NCBI GenBank assembly: GCA_023957775.1
Contig: JAMLGR010000013.1
Coordinates: 1 to 64,000 of the forward strand
Source of the DNA: Fimbriimonadaceae bacterium
GTDB lineage: Bacteria > Armatimonadota > Fimbriimonadia > Fimbriimonadales > Fimbriimonadaceae
Direction of reading: 5' to 3'
Length of the DNA stretch: 64,000 nt
Under the pieces are notes generated by a model that was given only the letters and a program-made list of their open reading frames with translations, was not told the origin of the DNA and did not search any database. The number at the start of each line of letters is the position of its first letter. The stretch's first letter is position 1. This document shows, one piece after another, positions 29,054 through 49,258 of this stretch. Made by a program: the position numbers and the translations under genes.

Positions 29054-29550
29054 TGGACGAGCGATTGCGCGAGGATTTTCCGATCGATTGGGAAGAGGAC
29101 GGCTATGTGTCGCGCCGCGAGTTCTTTAAGTTCATGACCGTCGCGAGCGGAGGGTTGGCCCTGGGCTCCCTGGGACTGGCGGCGTGGTCTCGGGGCCGTC
29201 GCGAAGGCATCTCGTTCGAACCGAAACGGATCGCGAGGCTGGACGCCCTCGCGCCCGGCTCTTCATTGGCGTTCAACTTTCCCCGCGAAACGGATATTTG
29301 CCTGCTGGTGAGGCGCCCCGACGGGGCGCTTTCGGCGTTTTCGCGCAGGTGCACCCACCTCTCGTGCCCGGTGGACTATCAGGCGGATAAGGATCGCCTG
29401 TACTGCCCGTGCCACAACGGGGCGTTCTCCGCTGAGGACGGGTCGGTGCTTCAGGGTCCGCCGCCGCACCCCTTGCCGGCGATCACGTTGGAGGTGCGCG
29501 ACGGCGAGGTGTGGGCGACCGGCGTCCGGCACGCAAAGGTGCGCTCGTGA
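29050..29550 (+). CDS. Rieske [2Fe-2S] protein with Tat-type signal anchor
   Basis: This 166-residue protein has a twin-arginine segment ([16 protein letters not shown]) followed by a hydrophobic helix, as in membrane-anchored Rieske proteins. The cluster ligands are Cys101/His103 (CTHLSC) and Cys119/His122 (CPCHNG), with Cys106 and Cys121 placed for the usual disulfide. It probably carries electrons on the outer face of the membrane. Its position inside a molybdoenzyme operon, away from a cytochrome b gene, is unusual. Confidence 0.9.
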
Positions 29551-29765
29551 AGCCGGGAGAGGGCCGGACCCGCCAGCGATCGACGGTGTTCGTCGCGCTG
29601 CTGCTGTTCAACCTCGTGCTCGTGCTGCTCCAACTGTGGCTGTTCGTGAGCGTCCTCGAGGGGGTGGTCGGCGGAGGAAGCGCGATGGCGGTGCCCGCGG
29701 CCGTGGCAAGTCTCGGACTGTTCGCGGTCAACGTATGGATGCTGCGCGGGCTCTACCGGCTGTAG
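29547..29765 (+). CDS. Small two-helix membrane protein of the molybdoenzyme operon
   Basis: This 72-residue protein starts at a GTG overlapping the Rieske stop codon. It has a basic N-terminus and two hydrophobic helices (VFVALLLFNLVLVLLQLWLF and VPAAVASLGLFAVNVWML). No family is recognised. The coupling suggests it is an accessory or anchoring subunit of the Nas-like complex. It ends 11 bases before the convergent NarI-like gene. Confidence 0.7.
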   Translation: MKPGEGRTRQRSTVFVALLLFNLVLVLLQLWLFVSVLEGVVGGGSAMAVPAAVASLGLFAVNVWMLRGLYRL

Positions 29766-29776
29766 CACTCCCACAC

Positions 29777-30880
29777 TCAACCGACAAACGGTTGGCCCTG
29801 GATGAGGGCGGCTTGGTTCAGGGCGATCAGCTTGCGCTTCGATTGGGGCGAGAGGTCCTGGTGGTCTCCGAAGTCGATTCCGACCTCGCGCATGACCGCC
29901 GCGAGGTCGTCGTGGTGCATTTGGCTCATGTACGGCTCCCCGGTGCGGGCGCAGCGTGCCTGCGGGCCGCGCGCTCCCTCCTCCTTGTAGTAGGCCACGC
30001 CGAGCTGCGCGGGCCGTTGGATGACGTGGAACAGCTTTCCGAACGGCAGCCAGAGCAGGAGGATCACCACCGTGAAGGCATGCAGAAGCGAAAGGAAGGG
30101 GAAGTTCTCTCCGCCCATCAGCTTGTAGCTCGCGGTAATCATGAGCCCGGTGACCGAGACCGCGAAGAGAAGGAACAGTGGGACGAGGTCGTTCGCCAGC
30201 GTTTGCACGGCCAAGGCGCCGCGATCGAAAAGGCGTCGGTGCATGGCCAGCGCCACGCCGATCAGGACCATCACGGCGCTGATGTTGAGGCCGTTGAACA
30301 TGAAGAACGCGACCACGGAGTCAGGGGGAAAAGCGAATTGGCGCGCGCCCATGAACTCGACGACGTAGTCGCGCCCGTACTCAGCGATGCCGAACTGCAC
30401 CCAGCCCCAACTGAGGGGAAAGGTGATCGCAAACGCGAGTAGACACCCCCAGGCAAGGGCCATGTGCGCCATCCAGCGCTGACGGTTCCGTCGTTCGATG
30501 AACCGCTGCGCCACGATCTGGTTCCATACGAGAACGGCGAGGCGGGCAAGATTCGGAAGCAGCCGACTCGGACGGAAGAACAGCCGCCAACTCGCCAAGA
30601 AATAGCGCCATGTGGGCGGCCGCTGAATCCACATCGTGTAGCGGTACGCGATGGCGAACGCCGCGAACACCGTCGCGGCCGCATAGGCCGCCAAGGGACG
30701 GTCGAACCGCTGAAGCGCACCGGATCCAAGCCCGATGCCAAGGAGCACAAGCAACGCCGCGCCGAACCCCGCGGCAAGGGCGATGGTCTGCGCTCGAGTG
30801 TTCGTACCAGGCACGAGTTCGAGCCTACCCCCCGGGGTGACGATTCGGCCCGACCCGTCCCGGTTGGACGGGAATGGCAC
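29777..30880 (-). CDS. NarI-like membrane cytochrome b subunit
   Basis: This 367-residue polytopic protein has about six to seven hydrophobic helices and resembles respiratory nitrate reductase gamma/heterodisulfide-reductase-type membrane subunits. His residues lie in or beside the helices (RWMAHMALAWGCLLAF; LLHAFTVVILLLWLPFGKLFHV) and could be haem ligands. The hydrophilic C-terminus (YMSQMHHDDLAAVMREVGID) is cytoplasmic. It is encoded on the opposite strand to the Nas-like operon, and could link that complex to quinol. The exact partner is inferred from proximity. Confidence 0.75.
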   Translation of the reverse strand: MPFPSNRDGSGRIVTPGGRLELVPGTNTRAQTIALAAGFGAALLVLLGIGLGSGALQRFDRPLAAYAAATVFAAFAIAYRYTMWIQRPPTWRYFLASWRLFFRPSRLLPNLARLAVLVWNQIVAQRFIERRNRQRWMAHMALAWGCLLAFAITFPLSWGWVQFGIAEYGRDYVVEFMGARQFAFPPDSVVAFFMFNGLNISAVMVLIGVALAMHRRLFDRGALAVQTLANDLVPLFLLFAVSVTGLMITASYKLMGGENFPFLSLLHAFTVVILLLWLPFGKLFHVIQRPAQLGVAYYKEEGARGPQARCARTGEPYMSQMHHDDLAAVMREVGIDFGDHQDLSPQSKRKLIALNQAALIQGQPFVG

Positions 30881-30901
30881 GCCCGTCCAGCGGGCGTGGC
30901 A
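30876..30901. repeat. 26-bp hairpin repeat, copy 1
   Basis: GGCACGCCCGTCCAGCGGGC followed by GTGGCA folds into a hairpin with ACGCCCG/CGGGCGT arms. Near-identical copies lie at 32514-32540 and 35002-35027. All three are intergenic. Confidence 0.75.
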
Positions 30902-30994
30902 CCCTCACCGGCACCCTCACCAGCACCCTCACCAGCACCCTCACCAGCACCCTCACCAGCACCCTCACCAGCACCCTCACCAGCACCTCACCAG
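30900..30994. repeat. 12-bp tandem repeat (CACCCTCACCAG)n
   Basis: Eight head-to-tail copies of CACCCTCACCAG (the first reads CGG at its end, the last lacks one base) follow directly on the hairpin repeat. They lie between two genes of the minus strand. The lack of spacers excludes a CRISPR array. Confidence 0.9.
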
Positions 30995-31096: not shown

Positions 31097-32443
31097 TCAG
31101 CAAGGCGCCTCGCACCCTTTGCGCGCATAGAACCACCAGTTGATCACGAGGTTCACCGCATAGAACGCGGCCGCACCGTAGAAGAACGACGTCGGCGAGC
31201 CGGTGCGCGCGATGATCGCGCCAAAGGCCACGGAGAAGATGAACGGACCGTACGCGGCGATGGCCGAGGTCCACCCGATCACGCCGCCCGCTTGGCGCGG
31301 CGGGAAGATCATGGGCATCTGCTTGAACGTGGACGCGTTGCCGACGCCGGAGAAGAAGAAGAGCCCCAGCATCGCCCACACGAACATGCCGAACGACGCG
31401 GTGGAGGTGGGATCCGTGTAGAGGGTCACCCACAGCGCGCAACCGAGCAACCCGATCGAGCTCCACATGGTGACGCGCGCGCCGCCCAATTTGTCGCTGA
31501 TCGGGCCGAACGCGGCCCGGACCCCCGCACCGACGAGCGGCCCGAGAAACGCGTATTTCAGGGGATCGGGAGCGTTGGGAAAGTCGCCGTAGACCTTCTT
31601 GATCAGCAGGGGGAAAGCGGCGGCATAGCCGGAAAACGACCCGAAGGTCATCATGTAGAGGCTGGTCATCAGCCACGTGTGCTTGTTCTTGAAGATGTCC
31701 GTCTGTTCGCGGAACGTGGCTTTGACCGGCACGCTGCGCAACATGATCCACGCGAGCACCGCGCCCACCAGGCAGAACGGCGCCCAGACATAGGCCGCGT
31801 TCTGCAGCCAGATCTGCTTCGACACGCCATCCTTCACCAGCGTTTGCGAGCCGCCCAGCAGGCTGCCGAACATGGCGAAGCCGATGATCCAGGGCACGGT
31901 GAACTGCGCCACGCTCACGCCGAAATTGCCGATGCCAGCCTGGTACCCCAGGGCCGTGCCCTGCAGCCGCTTCGGAAAGAAGAGGCTGGTGCTGGGCATG
32001 AACGAGGAGAAGTTGCCTCCACCCAATCCCGCCAAGAATCCGAGAAACAGGAACGTGCCGTACGAGGTGTCCGGGTTCTGGACGGCGATGCCCCACCCGA
32101 TGCACGGAATCACGAGCAGCAGGGTCGAGACCGCGACCGTTAGGCGTGTGCCGAGGATGGGAATGAGAAACGTGTGGATGATCCGCAGCGTGCCGGCGGC
32201 GAGGCCGGGCATCGCGGCGATCCAGAACAGTTGCTGCGTATCGAACTTGAATCCGATCCCTGGGAGCCGCACCGCGATCGCGCTCACCATGAACCACGTC
32301 GCGAACGCCAGGATCAGGCAGAAGGTGGTGACCCACAAGGTGCGCCACCCCAACCGGGATCCGCTCGCCCTCCAGAGCTCCAGGTCCTCGGGATTCCATG
32401 TCGAAGGGACGTCAGCGGGAGGGGGGGTATCGATGGTTTTCAT
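31097..32443 (-). CDS. narK: NarK-type nitrate/nitrite MFS transporter
   Basis: This 448-residue protein has twelve predicted membrane helices. It carries the nitrate-signature block of the NarK/NrtP family (FLAGLGGGNFSSFMPSTSLF, then FFPKRLQGTALGYQAGIGNFG) and a second glycine-rich block (FFSGVGNASTFKQMPMIF). It should import nitrate or exchange nitrate and nitrite. A cytoplasmic N-terminus of about 25 residues precedes the first helix. A degenerate TATG/CATA palindrome at 32495-32510 lies about 52 bases upstream of the start and might be a regulatory site. Confidence 0.88.
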   Translation of the reverse strand: MKTIDTPPPADVPSTWNPEDLELWRASGSRLGWRTLWVTTFCLILAFATWFMVSAIAVRLPGIGFKFDTQQLFWIAAMPGLAAGTLRIIHTFLIPILGTRLTVAVSTLLLVIPCIGWGIAVQNPDTSYGTFLFLGFLAGLGGGNFSSFMPSTSLFFPKRLQGTALGYQAGIGNFGVSVAQFTVPWIIGFAMFGSLLGGSQTLVKDGVSKQIWLQNAAYVWAPFCLVGAVLAWIMLRSVPVKATFREQTDIFKNKHTWLMTSLYMMTFGSFSGYAAAFPLLIKKVYGDFPNAPDPLKYAFLGPLVGAGVRAAFGPISDKLGGARVTMWSSIGLLGCALWVTLYTDPTSTASFGMFVWAMLGLFFFSGVGNASTFKQMPMIFPPRQAGGVIGWTSAIAAYGPFIFSVAFGAIIARTGSPTSFFYGAAAFYAVNLVINWWFYARKGCEAPC

Positions 32444-32585: not shown

Positions 32586-34055
32586 TCACCGCTCCGGCAC
32601 CATGTTCCTCGTCATCTTCAAGATCACCAGGTGCATCCACACCAGGCATACGATGGAGACGGCGGCGAGGAACAGCCAGCAGGTCGTCCAGAGCCCGGTC
32701 CCTTTGAGCATGTAGCCGAACAGAATGGGGCACACAAATCCCCCGAGTCCGCCTAAAACCCCAACGATCCCGCCCACGACGCCCACGTCGTTCGGGAAGT
32801 ACTCCGGGATGTGCTTGTACACGGCTGCCTTGCCCACGCCCATCATGATGCCGGCGAGGAACACCAGCCCCGTGAAGATCCAGACGTTCGCTTGGAAGTA
32901 CGCGTTGGTGACTCCCCGGGCGAGCACCTCCTTCTTGACGACCTTGTCGCCAACCTGCACTTGGGGTTCGTGCCACGACTGGAACGTGGGGAGGACGAGC
33001 GCCTCCTTGTCCTTCCGGGCAAGCCCGATCACATCGGGCATCCGCTTGAGGGGATAGACCTTGTCATCCACGACGATGCGTTCCGCACTCACGGCTGTGA
33101 CCGTTCCCGCGCGGTCGGCCATGACCCCTTCGCCGGGCGAGCGCACGCTCATTCGCGGCGCGACCAGCATCAGGAAGAACACCGCGCACGAGCTGAGGAC
33201 CCAGTACATCGTTGCCCGTGCGCCGAATTTGTCGCTCGCCCATCCGCCGAGCGCGCGGACGACGCCTGAGGGAAGGCTGAAGATCGCGGCCATGGTTCCC
33301 GCCATCGCCAAGGTCATCGAATAGACGTTCAGGTAGTAGGGAATGAGCCACTGCGAGAGGGCCACGAAGCCGCCAAAGACGAGGAAGTAGTAGAGGCCGA
33401 AGCGCCAAACCCGTAGGTCCTTCAACGGGCGCATCATGTCGCCCATCGAGCGGCCGGCGGTCTGGGGTTTCTTCGGGACCGTGAAGACCCAGAACAGGAT
33501 CGCCATCACGGCGAGGCCCGCAGCGTAGAGCTTGGGCATCATGCGCCAGCCCTCGATGCCGGCGCTTCCTTGCGTGAGCGCCTTGAGGAGGTGAGGGGCT
33601 CCCAAGCTGGTAAGCGCCGCCCCTGCGTTTCCCATGCCGAAGACCCCCAGAGCCGTGCCCTGGCGCTCTTTCGGGAACCAGACGGAGGAGTAAGCGATGC
33701 CTACGGCAAAGGAGGCCCCCGCCGTACCGAACGCAAGCCCCGCAACGAGCAGCGACGCGAAGGAGTTGGCTTCACCGACGAAGTACGCCGCCGCTGCGGC
33801 GATCAGCATCACCGCGAAGTAGACGGGCCGGCCTCCGTATCGGTCCGAGAGGTAACCCACCGGCAGCCGGAGTACGGATCCTGTGAGAATCGGGATCCCA
33901 ATCAACCAGCCGATCTGGGCCTTGTCCAGATCGACGACGCGTTGATCCACGAGGAAGGTGACCAGCACGCCGTACATGGTCCAGACGGCGAAGCACACGG
34001 TGAACGCCACCGTGTTCATGATCAAGATCCGGTTGGCCAGGCTGCGTTCGCTCAC
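32586..34055 (-). CDS. NarK-type MFS transporter with a periplasmic beta insertion
   Basis: This 489-residue MFS protein has the other NarK subtype signature (FGTAGASFAVGIAYSSVWFP) and the conserved late block KHIPEYFPNDVGVVGGIVGV. A hydrophilic insertion of about 90 residues sits between two helices (GTVTAVSAERIVVDDKVYPL through VGDKVVKKEVLARG) and looks like a small barrel-sandwich domain; comparable insertions are known to me in some type I NarK proteins. It probably works as the proton-coupled partner of the upstream transporter. The start is a GTG. The palindrome at 34090-34105 and a TACACT -10-like hexamer at 34064-34069 lie just upstream. Confidence 0.87.
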   Translation of the reverse strand: MSERSLANRILIMNTVAFTVCFAVWTMYGVLVTFLVDQRVVDLDKAQIGWLIGIPILTGSVLRLPVGYLSDRYGGRPVYFAVMLIAAAAAYFVGEANSFASLLVAGLAFGTAGASFAVGIAYSSVWFPKERQGTALGVFGMGNAGAALTSLGAPHLLKALTQGSAGIEGWRMMPKLYAAGLAVMAILFWVFTVPKKPQTAGRSMGDMMRPLKDLRVWRFGLYYFLVFGGFVALSQWLIPYYLNVYSMTLAMAGTMAAIFSLPSGVVRALGGWASDKFGARATMYWVLSSCAVFFLMLVAPRMSVRSPGEGVMADRAGTVTAVSAERIVVDDKVYPLKRMPDVIGLARKDKEALVLPTFQSWHEPQVQVGDKVVKKEVLARGVTNAYFQANVWIFTGLVFLAGIMMGVGKAAVYKHIPEYFPNDVGVVGGIVGVLGGLGGFVCPILFGYMLKGTGLWTTCWLFLAAVSIVCLVWMHLVILKMTRNMVPER

Positions 34056-35027: not shown

Positions 35028-35047
35028 TCCACTCCCACGTCGTCGAC

Positions 35048-35310
35048 TCACCCCTGGGAGTGCGCGCGCTTGCGCGTCGCCATTCACCGCCGGACTTTGT
35101 CCGGCCTCGGTGCCCTGCGCGCTCGCCGCAAGCGGCTCGGGTTCAGGGCGGCGAGCAAGCTCGCGCACTCCCACGTCGCCGTTCACCCCTGGGAGTGCGC
35201 GCGCTTGCGCGCCGCCTTTCACCGCCGGACTTGTCCGGCCCCGGCGCCCGGCGTGCTCGCCGCAAGCGGCTCGGGTTCAGGGCGACGAGCAAGCTCGCGC
35301 ACTCCCACAG
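35048..35310. repeat. Two tandem REP-like palindromic elements
   Basis: Two units of about 130 and 120 bases each begin with GGGAGTGCGCGCGCTTGCGC and end with GAGCAAGCTCGCGCACTCCC, so each unit can fold end to end. Each carries an inner stem (GCCGGACTTTGTCCGGC in the first, CCGGACTTGTCCGG in the second) and the shared block CTCGCCGCAAGCGGCTCGGG. Together with the sequence at 34914-35047 they fill the 305-base gap before the cytochrome b stop codon. The second unit forms the last codons of the cytochrome b gene. Confidence 0.8.
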
Positions 35311-36445
35311 TCGGTTCGTGGGGCGGTGGGGTCTCCAGGATCCCCTTCAGCGTGAACAAGCCGATCAGGAGGATGACGGCCATCCCGGCGTGGATGATCC
35401 ACTGTCGCATCGCGGGGTGGCGCGAGTCCGAACGGTCGATCCACGGCAGGAACAGCATCCCGATCGTCACCAACCCCGGCACGATCAGCGTCGCCACGAC
35501 CTCCCATCCCGCAGGCATGACCTTCAGCAGCTCGTACAGGCCGAGGAAGTACCACTCCGGTCGGGGCGCGAAGTCCGTGCCGGTGGGATCGGCGATCCCC
35601 TCGATCGCAGGCGGAAATGCGAGCGCCAGATACACCAGCAACCCCATGCCCGCAAGCACCACGGCCGCATCGCGGAAGAGCTGGACGGGGAAGAACGCCA
35701 CTCGCGGTCCCTTCTGCGGAAGCACGGGACCCGCGATGTGCAGGCGCCTCACCAGATAGAGGTGAATCGCCACCAGCGCCACCAACGAGACCGGTAGCAC
35801 CATCACGTGCAGCGCGTAGAAGCGCGTCAGGGTGAGCGATCCCACCTCCTGGCCGCCGCGGATCAGCACCAGCAGCTGGTTGCCGATGATCGGGATCGTG
35901 CCCGCGATGCGCGTGCCCACCACGGTCGCCCAGTATGCCTTCTGGTCCCACGGCAGCAAGTAGCCGGTGAACGAGAATCCGAGGATGACCTGGAAGATCA
36001 GCACGCCCACCAGCCACGTCAGCTCGCGCGGCTTCTTGTACGAACCCCAGAAGAATACGCGCAGGATGTGCAGCACCGTGGCGATGACGATCAGCGTCGA
36101 TCCCCACACGTGGAGGCCGCGCACCACAGCCCCCAGAGGCGCTTCCTGCGTGATGTGCTTCACGCTGTCGTACGCCGCCTGCGGCGCCGCCGCGTAGTAC
36201 ATCGCCAGCGCAACGCCCGTGATGAACTGGAACATCAGCAGCGTGAGCAACAGGTTGCCCAGGGTTTGCCACCAGCCCACGCCGGGAGGCATCGGCTCGT
36301 CGAGGTTCTTGCGGACAAAGCCCCACCAACCGAGCCGAAGGTCGGTCCAGTCTTTGAAACTCGGCCGCGTGACGATCTGCTCCTCCTCGGGGGTGAGGGG
36401 CGCTTGATCGACCGGCCGTTCGGGGGTCAGGGTTCGTTTGGACAT
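35219..36445 (-). CDS. Cytochrome b (fused b6/subunit IV type) of a Rieske/cytochrome b complex
   Basis: This 408-residue protein has both halves of cytochrome b. Haem-ligand His pairs lie in HVWGSTLIVIATVLH and HVMVLPVSLVALVAIH, and a PEWYFLGLYELL block marks the quinol-oxidation site. It should oxidise quinol together with the Rieske protein encoded two bases upstream. About the last 30 residues (from GVRELARRPEPEPLAAS on) are encoded by a REP-like element, so the C-terminus is not native. It is the last gene of a four-gene minus-strand operon. Confidence 0.92.
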   Translation of the reverse strand: MSKRTLTPERPVDQAPLTPEEEQIVTRPSFKDWTDLRLGWWGFVRKNLDEPMPPGVGWWQTLGNLLLTLLMFQFITGVALAMYYAAAPQAAYDSVKHITQEAPLGAVVRGLHVWGSTLIVIATVLHILRVFFWGSYKKPRELTWLVGVLIFQVILGFSFTGYLLPWDQKAYWATVVGTRIAGTIPIIGNQLLVLIRGGQEVGSLTLTRFYALHVMVLPVSLVALVAIHLYLVRRLHIAGPVLPQKGPRVAFFPVQLFRDAAVVLAGMGLLVYLALAFPPAIEGIADPTGTDFAPRPEWYFLGLYELLKVMPAGWEVVATLIVPGLVTIGMLFLPWIDRSDSRHPAMRQWIIHAGMAVILLIGLFTLKGILETPPPHEPTVGVRELARRPEPEPLAASTPGAGAGQVRR

Positions 36446-36446
36446 C

Positions 36447-36953
36447 TCACACGCTCCGGAACACTTCGATCTTGCCGCCCTTGATGCGGACGGGATGTCG
36501 CTCGAGGGCCTTGGGCGGGGGGCCCGACACGACGCGGCCCTCCGCGTCGAACACGCCGCCGTGGCACGGGCAGAAGTAGCGCATCTTCGCGTCTTGGAAC
36601 TTCACGCGGCAACCGAGGTGCGTGCAGGCCGGGTCGATCGCCACGACCTGATCGGGGTGGCGGTACAGATACAGCACGTACTGCCGGTCGACCGTCTGGT
36701 AGCCGTCCTTGATCGGGATCGCGAAGCGCACTTCGCGCGTTTGCCCCACGGCGAGCGCTCCGTCGTCCAGTACGGGGACCCAAACGCCCTTCGCCTTTCG
36801 GCGCAACGGACCGCCGACGAGGCCCATCACGGGGCCCACCACGGTGAAGAAGACCACCGCGTTGATCACCCCGATGAGCCACGCGAGGACCTTGCGCCGC
36901 GTGGGCGGGACGGGTTCGACTGGAAGCGATTCGAGAGCAGGAGTATCAGCCAT
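36447..36953 (-). CDS. Rieske [2Fe-2S] subunit of the cytochrome b complex (QcrA-like)
   Basis: This 168-residue protein has a TRRK twin-arginine start followed by one transmembrane helix (LIGVINAVVFFTVVGPVMGL) and a Rieske domain. The ligands are Cys110/His112 (CTHLGC) and Cys128/His131 (CPCHGG). It is followed after one base by cytochrome b, the normal pairing, and is preceded by the cytochrome c/NarI-like fusion. It probably passes electrons from quinol to the c-type haem. Confidence 0.92.
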   Translation of the reverse strand: MADTPALESLPVEPVPPTRRKVLAWLIGVINAVVFFTVVGPVMGLVGGPLRRKAKGVWVPVLDDGALAVGQTREVRFAIPIKDGYQTVDRQYVLYLYRHPDQVVAIDPACTHLGCRVKFQDAKMRYFCPCHGGVFDAEGRVVSGPPPKALERHPVRIKGGKIEVFRSV

Positions 36954-36968
36954 GGTTGTGCGTTCCCA

Positions 36969-38102
36969 TTAGGGGTAGTAGCGAAGCGTGGTGGGTCCTT
37001 CGTAGTCGGGGTCGATCGCCTTCAGCACGCCAAGGGCGATGCGCTCGGATTTGTGGTGCCGGCCCGGCGCAGGTTCCCGCTCGAAGCCGAGGTTCACGCC
37101 CGAAGCCGTGACGGCCTCGGTGACGCGGGTCATCGCGACCAGCGCCGGAACGACCCACGCGTGGGCGAACCGGGTGAAGGGCGCGGTGGCGATCAGAAGC
37201 GTGATCGAGCCGAGGTGGTAGAGGTAGACGGGCATGACCCAACCCGACTGGCCGCTTCGGTTGATGATCACCGTGAGGAACCCGCTGACCACCGTGTGGA
37301 CGAGAAGGTTGACGAAAAGGAAATCGCGCCCCAGGGTCAGTCCGTTGTCGATGTAGGGGTCCGTCCGGTAGCGGAACAGCACGTAGAACACGCCGGTCAT
37401 GACGGCGATGCCGGAGACGATGGGCAGGATCTTCAGCGGGTCCAGCAGCGACAGGTCGCCGCGCGTCGGGTTGAAGATCTGCATCAGGATGTCCGCGAGC
37501 ATCAAACCCAGGAACCCGTAGAGGATCAGGCCGTGCATGAACCATCGGAAGCGGTTCTTCCTGAAGAGCGAGGCGACGCACAGCCCGTCCACGACCAGCG
37601 AGCGCAGCGCGATCCCCGTGGCCCGGAGGCGCCCGAACTTCTTCACGTACGGCGAGAGGTTCTTCCATCCCGCGCAGCCGAGCCAGTAGACCAACACGCG
37701 GACGCCGAAGATGAACGCGAACAGGAAGACGGCGAGGAACAGGTGCGTCACCGAGTGTGTGCTCAGCATCCGGCCGACGGTGTAGGAGAGCGGAATCTGC
37801 GACTCGATCCACGGCATCTTCTGCACTTCGTCGTGCAGCGCCTTCACGTCGGCGTCGGGCAGCTCGGTGGCGGGGGTCGCGGGCATCATGCCCTTGCCCT
37901 TGCGGACCGTGTCGAGGAACTCCTCGTAGGTGAGTTTCGTGGTGGCCAGGGGCGGTCCCAAGCCGCCCATGGCGGTTACCCCGTGGCATCCGACGCACGT
38001 CGCCGTGGAGTACACCTCGGACTCGTGGGCCTGCTGGGCGGGCCCTTGGGCGATGGCAACCGACGACGCGAGAACCGCGAACCAGACAACGAACTGCTTC
38101 AC
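36969..38102 (-). CDS. Cytochrome c - NarI-like membrane fusion protein
   Basis: This 377-residue protein begins at a GTG overlapping the ferredoxin stop codon. A signal segment (FVVWFAVLASSVAIAQ) is followed by a single c-type haem motif, Cys36-Val-Gly-Cys39-His40, with a candidate Met ligand in GMMPATPAT. From about residue 105 there are five or more helices with His residues, as in NarI/cytochrome b membrane anchors (STHSVTHLFLAVFLFAFIFG, RWFMHGLILYGFLGLM). The fusion puts a periplasmic c-haem onto a membrane b-type subunit. It could connect the bc-type proteins below to the NarGH-like proteins above. Confidence 0.85.
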   Translation of the reverse strand: MKQFVVWFAVLASSVAIAQGPAQQAHESEVYSTATCVGCHGVTAMGGLGPPLATTKLTYEEFLDTVRKGKGMMPATPATELPDADVKALHDEVQKMPWIESQIPLSYTVGRMLSTHSVTHLFLAVFLFAFIFGVRVLVYWLGCAGWKNLSPYVKKFGRLRATGIALRSLVVDGLCVASLFRKNRFRWFMHGLILYGFLGLMLADILMQIFNPTRGDLSLLDPLKILPIVSGIAVMTGVFYVLFRYRTDPYIDNGLTLGRDFLFVNLLVHTVVSGFLTVIINRSGQSGWVMPVYLYHLGSITLLIATAPFTRFAHAWVVPALVAMTRVTEAVTASGVNLGFEREPAPGRHHKSERIALGVLKAIDPDYEGPTTLRYYP

Positions 38103-38791
38103 GCCTGCTCCTCCTTGCCGCCGGGAACGGGCGCCGGCGCGCCGAGTGTCGAAGTCTGCTGGTGGGCCATGGGACCGAGGTAGCACCCCGCGGGCTTCGT
38201 CTTCGCCTCGGGAAGCAGGTGGAACGGCTCGCGTTTGGTCGCCACCTTCTGCTCCTCGATGTAGGTGGAGATCTCGCTTTCGCGGTCTTCGAGGTCTCCG
38301 AAGATGCGCGCCTTGGTGGGGCACGCCACGACGCACGCGGGGTCGAGGCCGACGTCCACGCGCTGCGCGCAGTAGGTGCACTTCCGGGCCACGTTCTCGT
38401 TGAGCCGGGGCTTCACGTGGTCGCGCTCGTACGACTCGTCCTCGTTCAAGTACCACTTGTCGCGGGGGATCAGCATGACGTTGCCGTAGGGGCACGCGGA
38501 GACGCACGCGCCGGTTCCCCGGCACCGCTCCTGGTCGATGAGGACGATCCCGTCTTCGCGCCGGATGATCGCCTTGTTGGGGCACGACTTGAGGCAAGGC
38601 GCATCGTCGCAGTGGTTGCACAGCACGGGGATGTACAGCCGCTTGACGTTGGGATACGTCCCCGATTCGACGTTCAGCACGCGTGCGAAGAACACGTCCA
38701 CCGGTGTGCCGTTCTCCTGCTTGCAGGCCAGCGTGCACGCATCGCAGCCGATACAGCGCGTGAGGTCGATGAGCATCGAGAGTCTTGCCAT
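38099..38791 (-). CDS. NarH-like iron-sulfur subunit with one altered cluster motif
   Basis: This 230-residue protein has four cluster motifs: Cys13/16/19/23, Cys58/61/66/70, Cys90/96/100 and Cys138/141/153/157. In the third motif (CRGTGACVSAC) the second Cys is replaced by Thr93. NarH has Trp at this place (CRGW...C) and carries a [3Fe-4S] cluster there, so the same is expected here. This marks it as the beta subunit of a NarG-class enzyme rather than a PsrB-type ferredoxin. It heads the operon that continues with the cytochrome c fusion, Rieske and cytochrome b. Confidence 0.88.
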   Translation of the reverse strand: MARLSMLIDLTRCIGCDACTLACKQENGTPVDVFFARVLNVESGTYPNVKRLYIPVLCNHCDDAPCLKSCPNKAIIRREDGIVLIDQERCRGTGACVSACPYGNVMLIPRDKWYLNEDESYERDHVKPRLNENVARKCTYCAQRVDVGLDPACVVACPTKARIFGDLEDRESEISTYIEEQKVATKREPFHLLPEAKTKPAGCYLGPMAHQQTSTLGAPAPVPGGKEEQA

Positions 38792-38838
38792 GGTTGGTGA
38801 TCCCTGGCTGGATTCTCGCGCGCCGTGAGGGGCCCGCA

Positions 38839-38854
38839 TATGATTCGGATCATA
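38839..38854. promoter_or_regulatory. Crp/Fnr-type operator palindrome, copy 2
   Basis: TATGATTCGGATCATA is identical to the copy at 34090. It lies 47 bases upstream of the NarH-like start. A GAGAAT hexamer at 38812-38817 on the minus strand is where a -10 element would fall if the site is centred at about -41.5. Confidence 0.72.
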
Positions 38855-38891
38855 AGGGCCGAAACGGGCGAAACTGGGAGACAATGGGGGC

Positions 38892-39785
38892 ATGGCCGAG
38901 TTCGTCTCGCGGGTTTCGGAGAAGCTGTTCCTTCGGTTCTTCCAGTGGTTGCTTTTCGCGACGTTCGTCGGCGTCGGTTTCGGGTGGCTTGCCGGAGGGA
39001 AGGAGCTTTCCTTGGCCAATCGGCTCGCGACCGAGGGCGTGCGCGTCCAGGGAGCGGTGACCGAGACCAGCGCCGGCGACTACCTCAACGCCCCGACGGT
39101 GCGTTACCGGTATGTGGTGAACGGCGAGACGCTCTACGGTTACTCGCACACCGACCCCGAGAAGGTGGTGACCTACGCCCCCGGCGACCCCGTGGAGGTG
39201 ACGTACCTCCCGTCCGATCCCGGCGAATCGGGAACCGATCTGGTAGCGATGCAGAACTCGGGCAACGCGGGCCTTTTCCGAACGGTGTTGATCGAAGCCG
39301 TCGTGGCCTTGTTCTTTTGGGGGCCGGTCGTGTTCAGCAAGCTGGCGATCGGGAAGCTGAACTTCCCGGTGGGCAACTTCCTTGTGGGCATGGTGATCAC
39401 CGGCCTGATGTTTCTGGTTGGCGTGGGGGTGCTGTTTGGAAGCGCCGTGCCCCAACTGAAGCGCGCCGAGGCCCTTGCCGACCACGCCGAGGTGGTGGAC
39501 GCCCAGATCACGGGTGTGTACGATGGGGAGCACGGAAGGTACGCAGACTACGCCTACACCGTCGGAGGGAAGCACTACTCCGGCGAGGCGCCCTACGGCG
39601 GGGGATACGGCGATCGGGGCACCCTCCGCATCCGCTACCTGCCCTCGGAACCGGGCTACTCGTCCATGTCGCCCTTCGACGAGCTGTCGAACGCCAAGCA
39701 GGGTGTGGCGTTCATGAGCGTGTGGACCCTGCTCGCGCTGGGGTTCACCGTGGCCATCTACATCGCGGGCAGACGCACGCTCTAA
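38892..39785 (+). CDS. DUF3592-like membrane protein with two extracytoplasmic beta units
   Basis: This 297-residue protein has about four hydrophobic helices and two similar beta units: VQGAVTETSAGDYLNAPTVR with VVTYAPGDPVEVTYLPSDPG, and VVDAQITGVYDGEHGRYADY with GTLRIRYLPSEPGYS. Such pairs are typical of DUF3592. Function unknown. It is encoded between the two minus-strand halves of the NarG-like module and starts 37 bases from the operator palindrome, so it may belong to the same regulon. Its last codon overlaps the NarG-like stop on the other strand. Confidence 0.75.
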   Translation: MAEFVSRVSEKLFLRFFQWLLFATFVGVGFGWLAGGKELSLANRLATEGVRVQGAVTETSAGDYLNAPTVRYRYVVNGETLYGYSHTDPEKVVTYAPGDPVEVTYLPSDPGESGTDLVAMQNSGNAGLFRTVLIEAVVALFFWGPVVFSKLAIGKLNFPVGNFLVGMVITGLMFLVGVGVLFGSAVPQLKRAEALADHAEVVDAQITGVYDGEHGRYADYAYTVGGKHYSGEAPYGGGYGDRGTLRIRYLPSEPGYSSMSPFDELSNAKQGVAFMSVWTLLALGFTVAIYIAGRRTL

Positions 39786-42235
39786 GGTCTCACGCCTGAG
39801 GCGCAGAGGCGCACGTCCACCCGTGTGTCTTTCCAGTGCTGCCCGGGGGCGTAGACGGCCGGCAGATAGTAGTTCTCGTGCGTCGCCTTCACCTTCTGGT
39901 GCGTGTGGACGCTGTGGTACTTGCCGCCGCCGAGGTAGCGGTCCCACCAACCGTGATCCACGCACAGAACGCCGGGCTTGATCGCCTCGGTGACGAGCGC
40001 CCACACCTTGTACGCGCCGTTCTCGTTGAAGATCTCGACCGGATCGCCGTCCGCGATGCCCCGGGCCGCGGCGTCTCGCGGGTTGATCTCCACCACGGGC
40101 TTGCGGTTCACGTTCAGGAGGAGGGGGTTGTTGCTGTGCGTCGAGTGCACGCGCCACTTCGAGTGCGGCGTCACGATCGCGAGGGGCATGCGCTGGTCGT
40201 GCTCGGGCAGGTGTTCGAACGCGGGTTTGAAGATCGGGAGCGTCTCGCCCAGCTTTTGGAAGACATCCTCCTCTTTGTAAAACTCCATGCGGCCCGTCTT
40301 GAGGAACTCGCGCTGGGCCCCCTCGGGGAACGGGTAGGCGCGCGGAGGGAAGAGGTGGTGGTCGGCGAACTGCTCGTCGCACCCCACTTCGGGGTCGGGC
40401 ACGTCGAGGCGCACAGGCCCCGCCTTGAGCTGCTCGACCGTGATGCCGGCGACCTCCTTGCCGCCGCCGTCCAGCATCATCTGGATCGCGTCGAACTCGT
40501 CGCACTCGAAGTACTTGAGGAGCGTCGGATCGACGCGGCGCAGAAGCTCCCGAACCATCCACATTTCGGTGCGGCTGTCGTACCGCGGGCTCAGCACCTC
40601 CTGCTGGATCTGGAGGTACGGGTGGCAACTGGTCCCCACAAGCTCGACCTTCTCCCAGAACGTCGGGGCGGGGAACACCACGTCGCTGTACTCGCACGTG
40701 GGGGTCATTGAGAAGTCGATGGTCACGAACAGGTCGAGCGCGTCGATCGAGCGTTTGATCGGGTCGCTGAACTCGGTCACCAACGGATTCCCGTGGGAGA
40801 CGAAGAGGCCCTTGAATCCCGACTTCGGGTACTTGATCTTGGGGTTCGCCGTTTCCGAGGGCTGGCCCATGACGAAGTAGTGCATCGGCACCGCGTTGGG
40901 GCGTTTGCCATCGGGGAACCACCAGGGACTCACATCGAGCCGGAAGTGGTGCTGGCCGGAGTAGATCGAAACCGATTCGCCGGGCTTTCCGTGCGCGCCG
41001 ACCAGCGCGGACAGAAGCAGGATCGAGCGGATGGCGAGGTCGCCGTGCAGTCGGTGGTTGACCCCCATCCCGATGATGATCGAGGAGGGGCGCTGTGTCG
41101 CGTAGTCGCGGGCCAACTTGCGGATCGTCTCGGCGGGCACGTCCGTGATCGTCGCGACGTGCTCCGGCTCGTACTCGGGGCGCATCACCGTGTCCTCGAT
41201 GAGCTGGAAGACCGGCGTCACCGCCACCTCCTCGCCCGCGATCTTCACGTGCCGCGTGCCTCGCACGGCCAGGCGGACCGTGGCGGGCAGTTTAAGCGTG
41301 TCCATGGGAAGGACGAACGGCGCGTCCGCAAGCTCGTCCCACGCCACGAACTCGGCGTCCGTGCCAAGGCCGAGATCGCACGCCCGCAGCCGTCTGCCGT
41401 TGTCCTGGCGGATCAGCGTTGGGAAGTCGGTGAACGTGCGCAGGAACTCCCAGTCCGCGAGGTCGTCCGCGAGAACGACGTGGCACATCGCGAGCGCGAG
41501 GGCACCGTCCGTCCCGGGGTGGATGGGGATCCAGAGGTCGGCCCCCTTCGCGGTTTGGCTGCATCGCGGGTCGATGCACACGATCTGCGCGTTGTTCCGC
41601 TGCTTGGCGTATTGGGTGAGAAATTTGGCGTCGGGGATGCGGGTCTGGAAGACGTTGCTGGACCAGAGAATCGCGGTCTTTGCGTGGCCCCAGCTCTTGG
41701 TTTCGCACTCAACACAGTCGATCCCCATGGTGTGGGTGAATCCCATCGAGATGTCGCCGTTGAAGTCGTAGGCCGTCGCGAAGGTCATGCCGAGGAGGGA
41801 CGCCATCCGGACCTGCGCGCCCTTTTGGACGTAGCCGGTCGCCACGACTTGGTTGAACAGCAGCAGGCTCTCCGGACCGTGTTCGTCGATGATGGTGCGC
41901 ATCTTCTCCGCCACGTAGTCGAGCGCCTCGTCCCAGGACGCTTTGCGCCACTTGCCCTCGCCGCGCTCGCCGGTGCGGATCAGTGGCGTCTTGACTCGGT
42001 CGGGGCCGTAGATGAGGTGGGTCATCGACATCCCGCGCAGGCAGCCTCGCGGGTTGTACTCGGCGCACGGGTAGTCCGCGGCGGGTTTGAGGTCCACGAT
42101 CGTGTCGTCGACCACGGTGGCCAGCCATCCGCACGCCCCGGTGCAGTTCGGACTGTCCGTCGTGCGAACCACGCGCGCTTCACCCTTGGGGGCTGTGCCC
42201 TGGTTCCGGCCGGGTACCGCATGCCTTGTCGCCAT
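39782..42235 (-). CDS. NarG-like molybdopterin oxidoreductase (Asp-ligated type) catalytic subunit
   Basis: This 817-residue protein is a bis-MGD enzyme. The N-terminal cluster block DSPNCTGACGW parallels NarG (HxxxCxxxC) with Asp27 in the His position, then Cys31, Cys35 and Cys65 (RGCLRG). The block YDFNGDISMG aligns with the region where NarG/NxrA-class enzymes have an Asp molybdenum ligand, making Asp161 the candidate; there is no Cys there. C-terminal cofactor blocks include HSKWRVHSTHSNNPLL. No Tat signal is seen, which fits a cytoplasmic NarG-like subunit. AGGAGGA nine bases upstream fixes the start. Nitrate is the likely substrate, but the class also reduces chlorate, selenate and other anions. 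Confidence 0.85.
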   Translation of the reverse strand: MATRHAVPGRNQGTAPKGEARVVRTTDSPNCTGACGWLATVVDDTIVDLKPAADYPCAEYNPRGCLRGMSMTHLIYGPDRVKTPLIRTGERGEGKWRKASWDEALDYVAEKMRTIIDEHGPESLLLFNQVVATGYVQKGAQVRMASLLGMTFATAYDFNGDISMGFTHTMGIDCVECETKSWGHAKTAILWSSNVFQTRIPDAKFLTQYAKQRNNAQIVCIDPRCSQTAKGADLWIPIHPGTDGALALAMCHVVLADDLADWEFLRTFTDFPTLIRQDNGRRLRACDLGLGTDAEFVAWDELADAPFVLPMDTLKLPATVRLAVRGTRHVKIAGEEVAVTPVFQLIEDTVMRPEYEPEHVATITDVPAETIRKLARDYATQRPSSIIIGMGVNHRLHGDLAIRSILLLSALVGAHGKPGESVSIYSGQHHFRLDVSPWWFPDGKRPNAVPMHYFVMGQPSETANPKIKYPKSGFKGLFVSHGNPLVTEFSDPIKRSIDALDLFVTIDFSMTPTCEYSDVVFPAPTFWEKVELVGTSCHPYLQIQQEVLSPRYDSRTEMWMVRELLRRVDPTLLKYFECDEFDAIQMMLDGGGKEVAGITVEQLKAGPVRLDVPDPEVGCDEQFADHHLFPPRAYPFPEGAQREFLKTGRMEFYKEEDVFQKLGETLPIFKPAFEHLPEHDQRMPLAIVTPHSKWRVHSTHSNNPLLLNVNRKPVVEINPRDAAARGIADGDPVEIFNENGAYKVWALVTEAIKPGVLCVDHGWWDRYLGGGKYHSVHTHQKVKATHENYYLPAVYAPGQHWKDTRVDVRLCASGVRP

Positions 42236-42317: not shown

Positions 42318-42390
42318 GGCATAAGCACCCTCTGAAACGCATCCTCAGAGCGTGGACGGTTCCGTGCGCACTCGACTCGTGCCTCTTCCC

Positions 42391-43704
42391 ATGCGGGGCA
42401 CCACCGTCGAAAGGGAAGGGAACACCGGGATCGCGATCTACCGGCCCTTCTTCGCCGCGGGCATCCTGTGTGTGCTGACGGCCGGGTGCACGCTGGGCGC
42501 GGTCGCGCTGCTGGGAATCGCCCAGGCCGGATCGTACACGAAGAGTGGTTGGACCCCCTGGGTTCTGGCCCACGCCAACTCCCAGCTTTACGGTTGGATC
42601 GGGCTGTTTGTGATGGGTTTTGCCCTCCAGCAGCATGCGCCGAGCCCCGAGAAGCGGAGGCTGTTCAGCGTCTTGGCCATGGTTGCGTTGACGGGAGCCC
42701 TCGTTGGCATCGCACTTCGTTTCGCGGCAGAACCCATGGCGGCCATGCGCCATCCGTTGGGCGTGCCGCTCGGACTCGCCTCGGCTTGGATCCAGGCGCT
42801 GGCCGTGCTCGCCTTCGTGGTCAACCTCACGTGGACGCGGGAGCGCAAGGGCGAGGCTCTCCACTGGTCGTCGACCTTCATCTTCACGTCGCTCTTCTGG
42901 CTGCTGGTCGTGGCCCTTGTCGAACCGTTCGTGTTTGCGGCGTCCCACGGTTCGGGGGCCGTTGCCTTCGTCGCGAAGTGGTTCCAGCCGTACCGTGAGG
43001 CCCAGTTCTTGGGGTTTGTGGCGCAGATGGTGTTCGGGGTGGCGATGACGAAGTTCCACTCGTGTTTCGCCATGCGGCCCGCGGCTCGGACTCAAGGGCT
43101 CGTCGCTTGGGGGCTCTGGAACGCGGGGCTGCTGGTGCGCTCGTTCGGGTGGATGGCCTACGAGCGCGGGGGATTCGTGGCCGGTTCGGGGACGGCGTAC
43201 TTCCTCGGGGGCGTGCTGCTTGCGTTCGGCGCCGTGACCGCCGCGCTCTCGCTCGGGGTGTTCGAGGTTCCCCGTGTCCGGTTGGGCGGGCACCGCTTCC
43301 TTCGAGGCGCCTTTGGGTGGCTGCTTGTCTCGGGGGCCCTCCTCTGTCTCGAACCGCTTCATCTGGCCGTTCTGGGGATTCCGTTCTCCCATGCGTACAC
43401 GGGGGCGGTCCGACACGCCGTGACCGTGGGATTCCTCTCCCAGATGGTGCTGGGGGTGGGAACGCACGTTGCAGCCCGCATGCGAGGGATCGACGATGTT
43501 CGTTTGCCATCCCTGGTGGCAGTCTTCTGGCTCCTGAATCTGGGCAACGCGGCGCGCGTGGCGCTGGAGATCGGGACGGACTTCAACGCGGGGGCGTTCG
43601 CTCCCATGGGAATGACCGGATTCGTCGAGCTGTCCGCCTTGGCGATCTGGGCGTATCAGATGGCGAGACTCCTCTCGCCGACCAAGGTGGCTTATGTCGC
43701 ATAG
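42391..43704 (+). CDS. NnrS-like polytopic haem/NO-response membrane protein
   Basis: This 437-residue protein has about twelve hydrophobic helices and resembles NnrS-family proteins, which are linked to nitric oxide stress in denitrifiers. His-containing blocks are HANSQLYGWIGLFVMGFALQQH near the start and HAVTVGFLSQMVLGVGTHV near the end. An upstream GTG at 42352 would add 13 residues, but the ATG at 42391 leaves room for a promoter driven by the palindrome at 42302. The Crp/Fnr gene begins 11 bases before its end. Confidence 0.72.
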   Translation: MRGTTVEREGNTGIAIYRPFFAAGILCVLTAGCTLGAVALLGIAQAGSYTKSGWTPWVLAHANSQLYGWIGLFVMGFALQQHAPSPEKRRLFSVLAMVALTGALVGIALRFAAEPMAAMRHPLGVPLGLASAWIQALAVLAFVVNLTWTRERKGEALHWSSTFIFTSLFWLLVVALVEPFVFAASHGSGAVAFVAKWFQPYREAQFLGFVAQMVFGVAMTKFHSCFAMRPAARTQGLVAWGLWNAGLLVRSFGWMAYERGGFVAGSGTAYFLGGVLLAFGAVTAALSLGVFEVPRVRLGGHRFLRGAFGWLLVSGALLCLEPLHLAVLGIPFSHAYTGAVRHAVTVGFLSQMVLGVGTHVAARMRGIDDVRLPSLVAVFWLLNLGNAARVALEIGTDFNAGAFAPMGMTGFVELSALAIWAYQMARLLSPTKVAYVA

Positions 43705-44413
43705 CTTGATTGCCGATGTCCCCGAACGTCCGACCAACATTGCGGTGTTGGAGGCGTGCAGCCTGCTCAACGCGGTCGACGAGGAGTCTCGTCAGGTCCT
43801 TGCGGGCGAGTCGTTTATGGCGTACGCCGAGCGCGGAGAGGCCATCTGGATCGCCGGGGCGCCCTCGGTGTTCACGGGCATCGTCGGGGTCGGGTTCGTG
43901 AAGATGGCGAAGTCGAGCGCCGCCGGCATGGACGTCGCCGTGGAGTTGCTGGGACCGGGTCAGTGCTTCGGCCTGATGGCCGCGTTGGAGGGACGGCCGT
44001 TCCCGCTCAGCGCGATCGCGGTGAGCAACACGTGGTACCTGAAGGTGCCGACCCGCGCCCTCATCCCGGTGTACCAGGCGTGCGGACCGTTCAAGGACCA
44101 ACTGCTCCGAACCCTCACGCCTCGCCTGCGGCGCGCCCACGACATGATGGGGCGGCTCTCCTCGGGGCGGGTGGAGGAGCGGCTGGCCGCCGTGTTGCTG
44201 CTGCTCGCGGACAGCTATGGGCGGCGCGGGGATGGCGGCGTGGAGCTCGCCGTACCGTTGACGCGGCAGGATTTGGCGGAGATGGCGGGAACGACGGTGG
44301 AGACGACCATCCGCATCATGAGCCGGTGGCAGAAGGAGGGCATCGTCACCACGGAGAGCCGCCGCATCACGGTACGCGACGAGGAGCAACTCGCCGCCAC
44401 CCTGCACGCATGA
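43694..44413 (+). CDS. Crp/Fnr family transcriptional regulator, paralogue 1
   Basis: This 239-residue protein has a cyclic-nucleotide-binding-type beta barrel (about residues 25-140), a dimer helix, and a winged HTH. The recognition helix reads TTVETTIRIMSRW, close to the Fnr pattern TVETISR, which binds TTGAT-type half-sites. The Fnr N-terminal cysteine cluster is missing, so oxygen sensing by [4Fe-4S] is unlikely; a haem/NO sensor of the Dnr/NnrR kind is possible. It overlaps the NnrS-like gene by 11 bases. It is a candidate reader of the four palindromes in this region. Confidence 0.88.
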   Translation: MSHSLIADVPERPTNIAVLEACSLLNAVDEESRQVLAGESFMAYAERGEAIWIAGAPSVFTGIVGVGFVKMAKSSAAGMDVAVELLGPGQCFGLMAALEGRPFPLSAIAVSNTWYLKVPTRALIPVYQACGPFKDQLLRTLTPRLRRAHDMMGRLSSGRVEERLAAVLLLLADSYGRRGDGGVELAVPLTRQDLAEMAGTTVETTIRIMSRWQKEGIVTTESRRITVRDEEQLAATLHA

Positions 44414-44445: not shown

Positions 44446-44973
44446 TTAGGGGAGGTCGGCGGGGGTGTTGGCGCCTCGGATCCACTCCGGTTCGAAGCCT
44501 GTTTCCACCTGGGCGATGGACAGCGTGTCCACCCACCGCATGACGGCCTGGACATCGGCGAACCGAGGCTCGCGGAGCCGGGCCAACGCGCCTTCGGTGT
44601 AGAGCGCGCAGAGCGGTTGCAAGCGCCCTTCCAGAGCCGGGATGGCAGCGTCATGGCCCCCGAGCTGCGCCTGGAGGAACTCCACGATCCTGGGATCAAA
44701 ACGCGGCATGTCGCACGCGGCGACGAAGACGGCGGGCTCGGTGGAGCGGAACGCGCGCAGCGCCGCGAGCGGCCCCCCGAACGCCTGCGCATCGGCGAGG
44801 AACGGAAACCCCTCGAGGGGCTCGCGGCCAAGCACCGTGACCGGTATTCCGGCATCACGAAGGGATTGCGCGATGCGCAAACCCATCGGCGTCCCCGCCA
44901 CCGGAAGGCTCGCCTTGTCCCGGCCCATCCGTCGGCTCGCACCCCCGGTCAAAACCACCGCCTCGATCGCCAC
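44446..44973 (-). CDS. mobA: Molybdenum cofactor guanylyltransferase
   Basis: This 175-residue protein has the MobA nucleotide-binding start VVLTGGASRRMGRDKASLPV and the metal-binding block FVAACDMPRFDP. It adds GMP to molybdopterin to make the MGD cofactor needed by both molybdoenzymes in this block. The GTG at 44973 was chosen because the frame upstream is repeat-derived. It is slightly shorter than the usual 190-200 residues. Confidence 0.85.
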   Translation of the reverse strand: MAIEAVVLTGGASRRMGRDKASLPVAGTPMGLRIAQSLRDAGIPVTVLGREPLEGFPFLADAQAFGGPLAALRAFRSTEPAVFVAACDMPRFDPRIVEFLQAQLGGHDAAIPALEGRLQPLCALYTEGALARLREPRFADVQAVMRWVDTLSIAQVETGFEPEWIRGANTPADLP

Positions 44974-44995
44974 TCCAAACAACCTACCCCGGGCA

Positions 44996-45138
44996 ATCCC
45001 CCCTCCGCGCCTCCCCGTCTCTGTGTGAAAATCCCCCTTTGCGCACTTTGCGTCCCTTGCGTGAAACACCCCCCCCTTCGCGCCCTTAGCGTCCTTTGCG
45101 TGAAACACCCCCCCCCCCCTTGCGTGAAACTCCCCCCC
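44996..45138. repeat. CTTTGCGTGAAAC-family repeat cluster
   Basis: Several degenerate copies of CTTTGCGTGAAACACCCCCC follow each other (CTTTGCGCACTTTGCGTCCC, CCTTAGCGTCCTTTGCGTGA, CTTGCGTGAAACTCCCCCCC). They occupy the divergent region between mobA and the carboxymuconolactone decarboxylase-like gene. Similar sequence lies at about 31020-31120 and 53503-53530. Confidence 0.75.
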
Positions 45139-46477: not shown

Positions 46478-46766
46478 GGTAGGCGAAGCGCGAAGACGTG
46501 GCGGCAATGCGCCGGCGCGCGCCCTTGGGGATCACGAGCAGTTGGCCCGCTGCAAGCGAGTGTTCTGCGCCATCGATCTCCACCAATCCCTCGCCCTCGA
46601 TCCCGATCATGGCCACGTCGAGAAGGTCGTTGACGTGTTCGGGCGCGCCCCCTCCCTGCGGCCAACTGACGAGGGTGAGGTTGAGATCCTCGCCGTCGCA
46701 CCCCCACTGGGCGCCGCCTCCGGACGCCGCGGCCAGGATCTTGAGTAGGTCGACGGGCGGGTTCAC
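46416..46766 (-). CDS. Small cupin domain protein
   Basis: This 116-residue protein is a single cupin barrel ([68 protein letters not shown]). Candidate metal ligands are His and Glu in the first motif; the second His is not obvious. Its GTG start overlaps the Rieske stop codon, and GGAGG lies ten bases upstream, so it is co-translated with the Rieske protein. Role unknown. Confidence 0.78.
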
Positions 46767-47227
46767 CGGAGGGAGCCTCCTTCGCGCAAACCGATCGCCC
46801 AGACGTCGCCGTTCCGGACTTCGACGACCACGCGTGGGAGCGGATCGGGCGGGGGTCCTTCGACGACCTCGCCCGTATCGGCGTCGTAGGCGCCGCCGTG
46901 GCAGGGACACTCGATGCGGTGGGATTTTGCGTTCCATCCGACCGTGCACCCGAGGTGGGTGCACGTTCGGGAGTACGCCCGCAACTCGCCCTGCTCGGTG
47001 CGGAGGAGCAGACACGCGTCTTGCGCGCGCGGATAGGCGAAGGCGACCGAGTTGTTGGGCGGCAACTCCTCCAGCGCGCAGATGCGCTTGGGCTGCAGAA
47101 GGCGCGCGACGCGGCGGAACAGTTCCCAGGGCCCGACGCCGGACCATCCGCCCGCCGCCACCGCGCCGCACGAGAGTCTGCGCAGGATCTCGCGTCGGGT
47201 GGTTTCGGCATCGCTCGGATCGCACAT
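46763..47227 (-). CDS. Third Rieske [2Fe-2S] protein, Tat-type N-terminus
   Basis: This 154-residue protein has a [20 protein letters not shown] Tat-like start and a Rieske domain with CTHLGC and CPCHGG ligand boxes. A GTG at 47248 would add seven residues. It has no cytochrome b next to it and is coupled to a cupin gene instead. The palindrome at 47253-47268 lies just upstream, though the spacing fits the divergent porin gene better. Confidence 0.85.
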
Positions 47228-47252
47228 TGCGGTGCCATTGTCCCACACCCGA

Positions 47253-47268: not shown

Positions 47269-47330
47269 GAGCGGCCCGACACGCGGGGCGACCATGGGTT
47301 CGAAGTCCCGCAAGGGAAGGAGGAGTTCGC

Positions 47331-49255: not shown

Positions 49256-49258
49256 TCT

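Follow-up and report, generated by a model that had tools for sequence, protein, structure and literature searches.

The window analysed here is a 64,000-nucleotide stretch of an uncultured Fimbriimonadaceae bacterium of the Armatimonadota (assembly GCA_023957775.1, contig JAMLGR010000013.1). At positions 35219-42235 it carries five minus-strand open reading frames (ORFs) that encode, in the order A-B-C-Rieske-cytochrome b, a molybdoenzyme catalytic subunit (A), an iron-sulfur (FeS) subunit (B), a cytochrome c fused to a NarI-fold membrane domain (C), a Rieske protein and a cytochrome b (Table 1). All five are present at the place and on the strand given in the initial annotation, which had read them as a single electron route from quinol through a bc-type unit to a NarG-like enzyme. 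The stop codon of B overlaps the start codon of C (GTGA), the Rieske gene follows C after 15 bp, and 1 bp separates it from the cytochrome b gene. A and B are 990 bp apart, and the intervening plus-strand gene, missing from the initial annotation, encodes a DUF3592 membrane protein that is probably not part of the respiratory unit. Several relatives have an A-B gap of ~450 bp, and most have no gap.

Table 1. Genes of the five-gene block and its neighbours in the window
Feature	Position	Strand	Remarks
A, type II molybdenum-bis(pyranopterin guanine dinucleotide) (Mo-bisPGD) catalytic subunit	39782..42235	-	817 amino acids (aa)
B, four-cluster FeS subunit	38099..38791	-	230 aa
C, cytochrome c fused to NarI-fold membrane domain	36969..38102	-	
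Rieske protein	36447..36953	-	168 aa; CTHLGC/CPCH cluster motifs; one N-terminal membrane helix
b6-type cytochrome b with fused subunit-IV part	35219..36445	-	408 aa
DUF3592 membrane protein	38892..39785	+	between A and B, on the opposite strand
NarK2-like nitrate/nitrite transporter of the major facilitator superfamily (MFS)	32586..34055	-	often adjoins the block in relatives
NarK1-like nitrate/nitrite MFS transporter	31097..32443	-	305 bits vs family cut-off of 311.7
NnrS-like membrane protein	42352..43704	+	weak Pfam match; divergent from A; neighbour shared by several relatives
Crp/Fnr-family regulator	43694..44413	+	
MobA-like molybdenum cofactor guanylyltransferase	44446..45108	-	

Relatives of A are encoded at 33 loci in the genome collection. 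The closest named ones belong to the Armatimonadota (Fimbriimonadales, Fimbriimonadaceae, Chthonomonadaceae), and the carriers of the five-gene block are nearly all members of this phylum (Fimbriimonadia and Chthonomonadia). The five-gene order, which the initial annotation had proposed to look for elsewhere, is not due to chance, because it is kept at 23 of the 24 Armatimonadota-type loci from other genomes that have sufficient downstream sequence. The exception is L040/L086, where B, C, Rieske and cytochrome b lie ~12 kb from A on the same contig. One of the 23 loci (L057) is labelled as an Acidobacteria metagenome-assembled genome, and L042, a further locus that is truncated where its contig stops, as an archaeon; gene transfer or binning errors are possible explanations for both.

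The Rieske and cytochrome b sequences look complete by the standards of bc and b6f complexes. Cytochrome b, whose best match in the PDB is cytochrome b6, has the four haem-ligating histidines (112/126 and 213/228) and a PEWY motif at 296, and both cluster motifs are present in the Rieske protein. The block contains no separate gene for cytochrome c1 or f, and the only candidate c haem within it is that of C. Family searches of the source genome, which is 96.6% complete, identified this cytochrome b as the only one. They also detected an alternative complex III (ACIII), with an ActB-like protein (1054 bits to a solved ACIII chain), NrfD/ActC and ActD, whose genes directly precede those of an aa3-type oxidase. 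The cell thus has an aerobic chain that does not need the Rieske/cytochrome b pair, and because this separate ACIII and oxidase exist and no other cytochrome b is found, the pair appears dedicated to the A-B-C unit. That the pair is instead the general bc complex of the cell, adjacent by accident, would agree with its being the sole cytochrome b of the genome. We regard this as extremely improbable, given that the aa3-type oxidase sits with ACIII, that a strong cytochrome b match is missing from most relatives without A, and that the gene order is so widely kept. On these grounds the proposal of a dedicated unit, rather than of a bc complex that merely happens to be nearby, is supported.

The catalytic subunit is a member of the type II, Asp-coordinating dimethyl sulfoxide (DMSO) reductase family. 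Asp161 occupies the molybdenum-ligand column (PcrA Asp170; Asp275 in nitrite oxidoreductase, NXR) and is invariant across the alignment, and the nearest relatives in both sequence and fold are type II enzymes. An altered ligand (a Val/Ile column with an adjacent Glu) was considered and dropped, since residue counts in PcrA and NXR, together with the published account of NXR, identify the ligand as the aspartate of the GD motif, Asp161 in A. Asn30 falls in the substrate-Asn column of NarG and NXR. The FS0 cluster is predicted to be ligated by three cysteines and one aspartate (Asp27, Cys31, Cys35, Cys65), the fourth ligand being His49 in NarG and, in NXR, an Asp at a position different from that of Asp27. 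No twin-arginine translocation (Tat) signal or other export signal was seen in the sequence of A. The predicted structure (predicted local distance difference test score, pLDDT, 81; predicted template modelling score, pTM, 0.86) is closest among solved structures to perchlorate reductase PcrA (Z 37.5, 32% identity), followed by NXR (35.7), ethylbenzene dehydrogenase (EBDH, 34.3) and NarG (33). The best-scoring family model is TIGR03479 (type II), although at 464 bits A lies below its cut-off of 985; against the narG equivalog A reaches 261 bits, short of the 1084 that marks canonical NarG. In our tree, A and its Bacillota and Chloroflexota relatives form one clade (support 99/99), apart from NXR and from a group comprising haloarchaeal NarG, PcrA, ClrA and one canonical NarG; E. 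coli NarG, SerA and EbdA were left out of this tree, PcrA entered it from aligned stretches, and it does not fix the deep branching order among groups. Judged from these comparisons, A belongs to a type II clade of its own, separate from NarG, PcrA/ClrA and NXR. The initial description as NarG-like therefore holds for family membership and fails for NarG itself; read from sequence, this name, and "NarH-like" for B, are valid only in a broad sense.

Nitrate appears to be the likeliest substrate, because NarK, NnrS, Crp/Fnr and MobA genes are neighbours, NarK adjoins the block in most relatives, Hcp and hemerythrin genes adjoin the Desulfosporosinus copy, and A has nitrate reductase (NAR)-type residues. 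At four positions that distinguish NAR from NXR, Cys31, Thr198 and His691 are NAR-type and Met390 matches neither. The substrate could also be a different oxyanion (chlorate, perchlorate or selenate, for example), as perchlorate reductase is the best match of A in sequence and fold and an Alisedimentitalea plasmid carries a distant relative next to a chlorite dismutase gene. This seems decidedly unlikely: genes for NarK transporters, NnrS and an Fnr-type regulator adjoin the block, no chlorite dismutase occurs among the annotated neighbours, and PcrA is periplasmic whereas A has no visible export signal. It is also conceivable that the enzyme works as a nitrite oxidoreductase, with nitrite-derived electrons leaving through the c haem of C to an oxidase and the bc pair running in reverse. 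In its favour, Armatimonadota are residents of nitrite-rich anammox reactors, a separate NXR homologue is encoded by some of them, and NXR ranks second among the fold matches of A; nevertheless, the position of A outside the NXR clade and the NAR-type residues at three of the four positions make this very unlikely.

The connector predicted by the initial annotation stands, and the NarI fold of its membrane part was confirmed. Numbered from its GTG start, C consists of a signal-like helix, a CVGCH c-haem motif (36-40), a GKGMMP methionine motif (Met72/73) and five membrane helices that match NarGHI chain C (Z ~10, 16-19% identity). His190, His296 and His314 are invariant, and most Armatimonadota members also have His269, in helix IV, a candidate for the fourth haem-b histidine. 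Two of the invariant histidines, 18 residues apart, match the helix-V ligands of NarI, and the third is found where helix II begins. C therefore probably binds one b haem and possibly two. Two c-haem-like stretches occur in some members (L036, L038, L055, L066). Other high-ranking fold matches of C, to designed bundles and to EtfD (which we take to be itself NarI-like), were set aside as NarI-like or common helical arrangements, and phmmer matches to SAKe designed proteins were judged likely composition artefacts. By profile comparison, B is closer to ArrB and TtrB than to NarH. Its cluster III has a threonine in place of the second cysteine (CRGTGAC), as expected for the membrane-proximal [3Fe-4S] cluster of NarH-type proteins. 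In about ten genomes B and C form a single in-frame ORF, and L062 fuses A, B and C. Such fusions place B, in the cytoplasm, and the c haem, in the periplasm, on one chain connected by a membrane helix; since B is cytoplasmic and the c haem necessarily periplasmic, they would fix the topology of the unit, and they argue for one complex.

Relatives outside the Armatimonadota have only parts of the block. In the Bacillota (L058, L059, L060, L065; Desulfosporosinus, CEB3 and Bu12; 53-60% identity in A), A-B-C occurs with neither a c haem nor an adjacent bc pair, and the neighbouring genes encode Hcp, hemerythrin, SLAC1 or a NIR_SIR/ferredoxin-type protein. Both Hcp and hemerythrin genes adjoin the Desulfosporosinus copy, and the three-gene version could possibly serve nitrate respiration in sulfate reducers. 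Chloroflexota relatives (44-48% identity) retain only A and B of the block genes. L062, which is the first branch on the Armatimonadota side (Shimodaira-Hasegawa-like approximate likelihood ratio test, SH-aLRT, 87, not strong) and comes from a contig of low coverage, encodes A-B-C with the c haem, followed by an SLAC1 anion channel in place of the bc pair. This distribution suggests a stepwise assembly in which the core was joined by the c haem and then by Rieske and cytochrome b. The pair was probably the later addition, because the Bacillota relatives and the early-branching L062 have the core three genes only.

We consider it probable that the block is a dedicated respiratory unit which reduces nitrate to nitrite in the cytoplasm and is fed through the bc pair. 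In this model, the cytochrome b/Rieske pair would oxidise menaquinol at its Qo site and run a Q-cycle, and the Rieske protein would hand the electrons over to C, whose N-terminal c-haem domain would lie on the periplasmic side and replace cytochrome c1 or f. Electrons would then move inward across the membrane through haem b of the NarI-fold domain, the FeS clusters of B and the molybdenum site of A, nitrate being reduced on the cytoplasmic side. C would thus link the bc pair to the AB reductase, perhaps within a physical supercomplex. Such a route appears thermodynamically possible with menaquinone and would separate ~4 charges per two electrons, two from the bc pair and two from inward electron transfer. 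In the standard accounting, NarGHI separates two charges per two electrons, as does the haloarchaeal arrangement. We also lean, with less assurance, toward the fuller picture of a cytochrome-c-fed cytoplasmic nitrate reductase that acts like a terminal oxidase, achieves about twice the charge separation of NarGHI and was built stepwise from the core, the c haem and the bc pair.

Several points weigh against this model. A is closer to perchlorate reductase than to NarG in sequence and fold, and in the source genome A and B are split by a plus-strand gene. The second helix-II haem-b histidine of NarI, one of four, is missing from C, which makes the distal haem relay uncertain. The predicted structure of a B-C fusion is confident for C and poor for B, with large parts at pLDDT <50 and no readable interface. 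Finally, C might itself oxidise quinol, which is presumably what happens in the Bacillota relatives in the absence of a bc pair. If C oxidised menaquinol like NarI, the bc pair could be a second input to the c haem or could serve another periplasmic acceptor. The Bacillota loci indicate that the core works alone there, and L062 has the c haem next to an SLAC1 gene with no adjacent bc pair. Against this stand the constant presence of Rieske and cytochrome b in complete Armatimonadota blocks, L062 excepted, the placement of the c haem exactly where an acceptor for a bc complex is required, and the absence of one NarI haem-b histidine; we think direct oxidation by C unlikely.

The absence of a NarJ gene, recorded by the initial annotation for the locus, extends to the whole genome as assembled: a search for NarJ/TorD (PF02613) gave no match anywhere in the 96.6%-complete source genome, and search controls gave matches. 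Among the 51 genomes searched, only six encode such a chaperone, all of them with long NarG/NXR-type genes. The pathway may stop at nitrite, which the cell might then export, because family searches of the source genome found no NIR_SIR domain, NirK, NrfA over the cut-off or NorB (a second COX1-family protein); NirS was not searched for.

In textbook bacterial Nar enzymes, electrons are drawn directly from quinol via NarI. Canonical NarGHI shares with the block a cytoplasmic molybdenum subunit lacking an export signal, an FeS subunit and a haem b anchor of the NarI fold; in contrast, NarG has ~1250 aa compared with 817 for A, NarJ is obligatory, and NarI alone oxidises quinol with neither a c haem nor a bc pair. 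The narCGHJIKT operon of Thermus adds a subunit, the cytochrome c NarC, to a membrane-bound nitrate reductase (NarCGHI), but NarC is separate, NarJ is present, and no Rieske or cytochrome b gene is listed in the operon. PcrAB, which includes the closest solved relative of A, differs in being periplasmic, in having chlorite dismutase as a partner and in lacking a NarI-type anchor.

Partial precedents for the bc link are found in haloarchaea, Caldithrix and Streptomyces. In the haloarchaeal pNar clusters of Haloferax and Haloarcula (narB for Rieske, narC for cytochrome b, narGH, narJ), as in the block, Rieske and cytochrome b genes are clustered with a type II nitrate reductase and Q-cycle coupling has been proposed, whereas NarG is thought to face outward, TorD/NarJ is present, the haem subunit is EbdC-like rather than NarI, and the gene order is different. 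Inhibition of haloarchaeal Nar by antimycin A has been reported (cited in PMC4683180). Recruitment of the bc pair looks independent of haloarchaea, because haloarchaeal NarG lies in a different clade from A, and on the same ground we rejected the idea that the bc link descends directly from haloarchaeal nar. The nap cluster of Caldithrix abyssi likewise contains the only Rieske/cytochrome b genes of a cell that also has ACIII, although its Nap is periplasmic and receives electrons via NapM. Streptomyces coelicolor Nar1, a NarGHI enzyme tied to a bc complex, requires and co-purifies with bcc-aa3 components (PMC7931247), but it is a canonical Nar without a c haem of its own, and descriptions of its operon mention no dedicated bc genes. 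The initial annotation had taken a Rieske and a cytochrome b within the same operon to suggest a dedicated supercomplex. Such genes in a nitrate reductase cluster are already known from haloarchaea and Caldithrix; what is unusual, and what we judge to be new, is their combination, through a built-in c haem, with a cytoplasmic, NarI-anchored and NarJ-less type II enzyme. We found no description of the block in open-access full texts.

If the proposed route is correct, a group of Armatimonadota living in anammox reactors and elsewhere follows a more energy-conserving path in which nitrate reductase replaces the oxidase after complex III, and the energy gained per nitrate could roughly double relative to the textbook enzyme. 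The Nar-bc coupling that has been proposed for Streptomyces and haloarchaea could then be studied in a case where the genes are linked and the proteins purifiable. The block would also show that such coupling arose more than once, and that no known NarJ/TorD chaperone is required for the maturation of a type II enzyme.

Some observations concern related enzymes elsewhere. Several Armatimonadota (L088 in G017, L089 in G026 and L090 in G044) encode an NXR of the Nitrospira/anammox type together with a TorD-type chaperone, L088 scoring 1706 bits to Kuenenia NXR; an Armatimonadetes genome with an NXR-type cluster was already reported by Speth et al. in 2016 (PMC4821891). On an Alisedimentitalea scapharcae plasmid (L078), the conjugative-plasmid cluster that encodes a distant relative of A (33%) also holds genes for a chlorite dismutase family protein, TorD and a cytochrome c; the relative may be an unusual (per)chlorate reductase.

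The window also contains a second nitrate-type cluster, at 26268-29765 (+) and 29777-30880 (-), with a NasC-like molybdoenzyme (830 bits against a cut-off of 1100), a four-cluster FeS protein, a Rieske protein with a twin-Arg-like N-terminus (SRREFFKF), a small membrane protein and a second NarI/QmoC-like protein. The cluster is perhaps not assimilatory, because the genome lacks a NIR_SIR nitrite reductase; a similar set is found in L057. A further Rieske protein (46763-47248, minus strand) and a divergent alginate-export-type porin (47307-48506, plus strand) are found again close to the block in several relatives, in some cases accompanied by an FeS protein. Tandem repeats lie at 30899-30994 (12 bp unit), 35030-35313, 45033-45115 and 49254-49365; the second consists of two copies of a 134 bp unit and extends into the terminal part of the cytochrome b gene.

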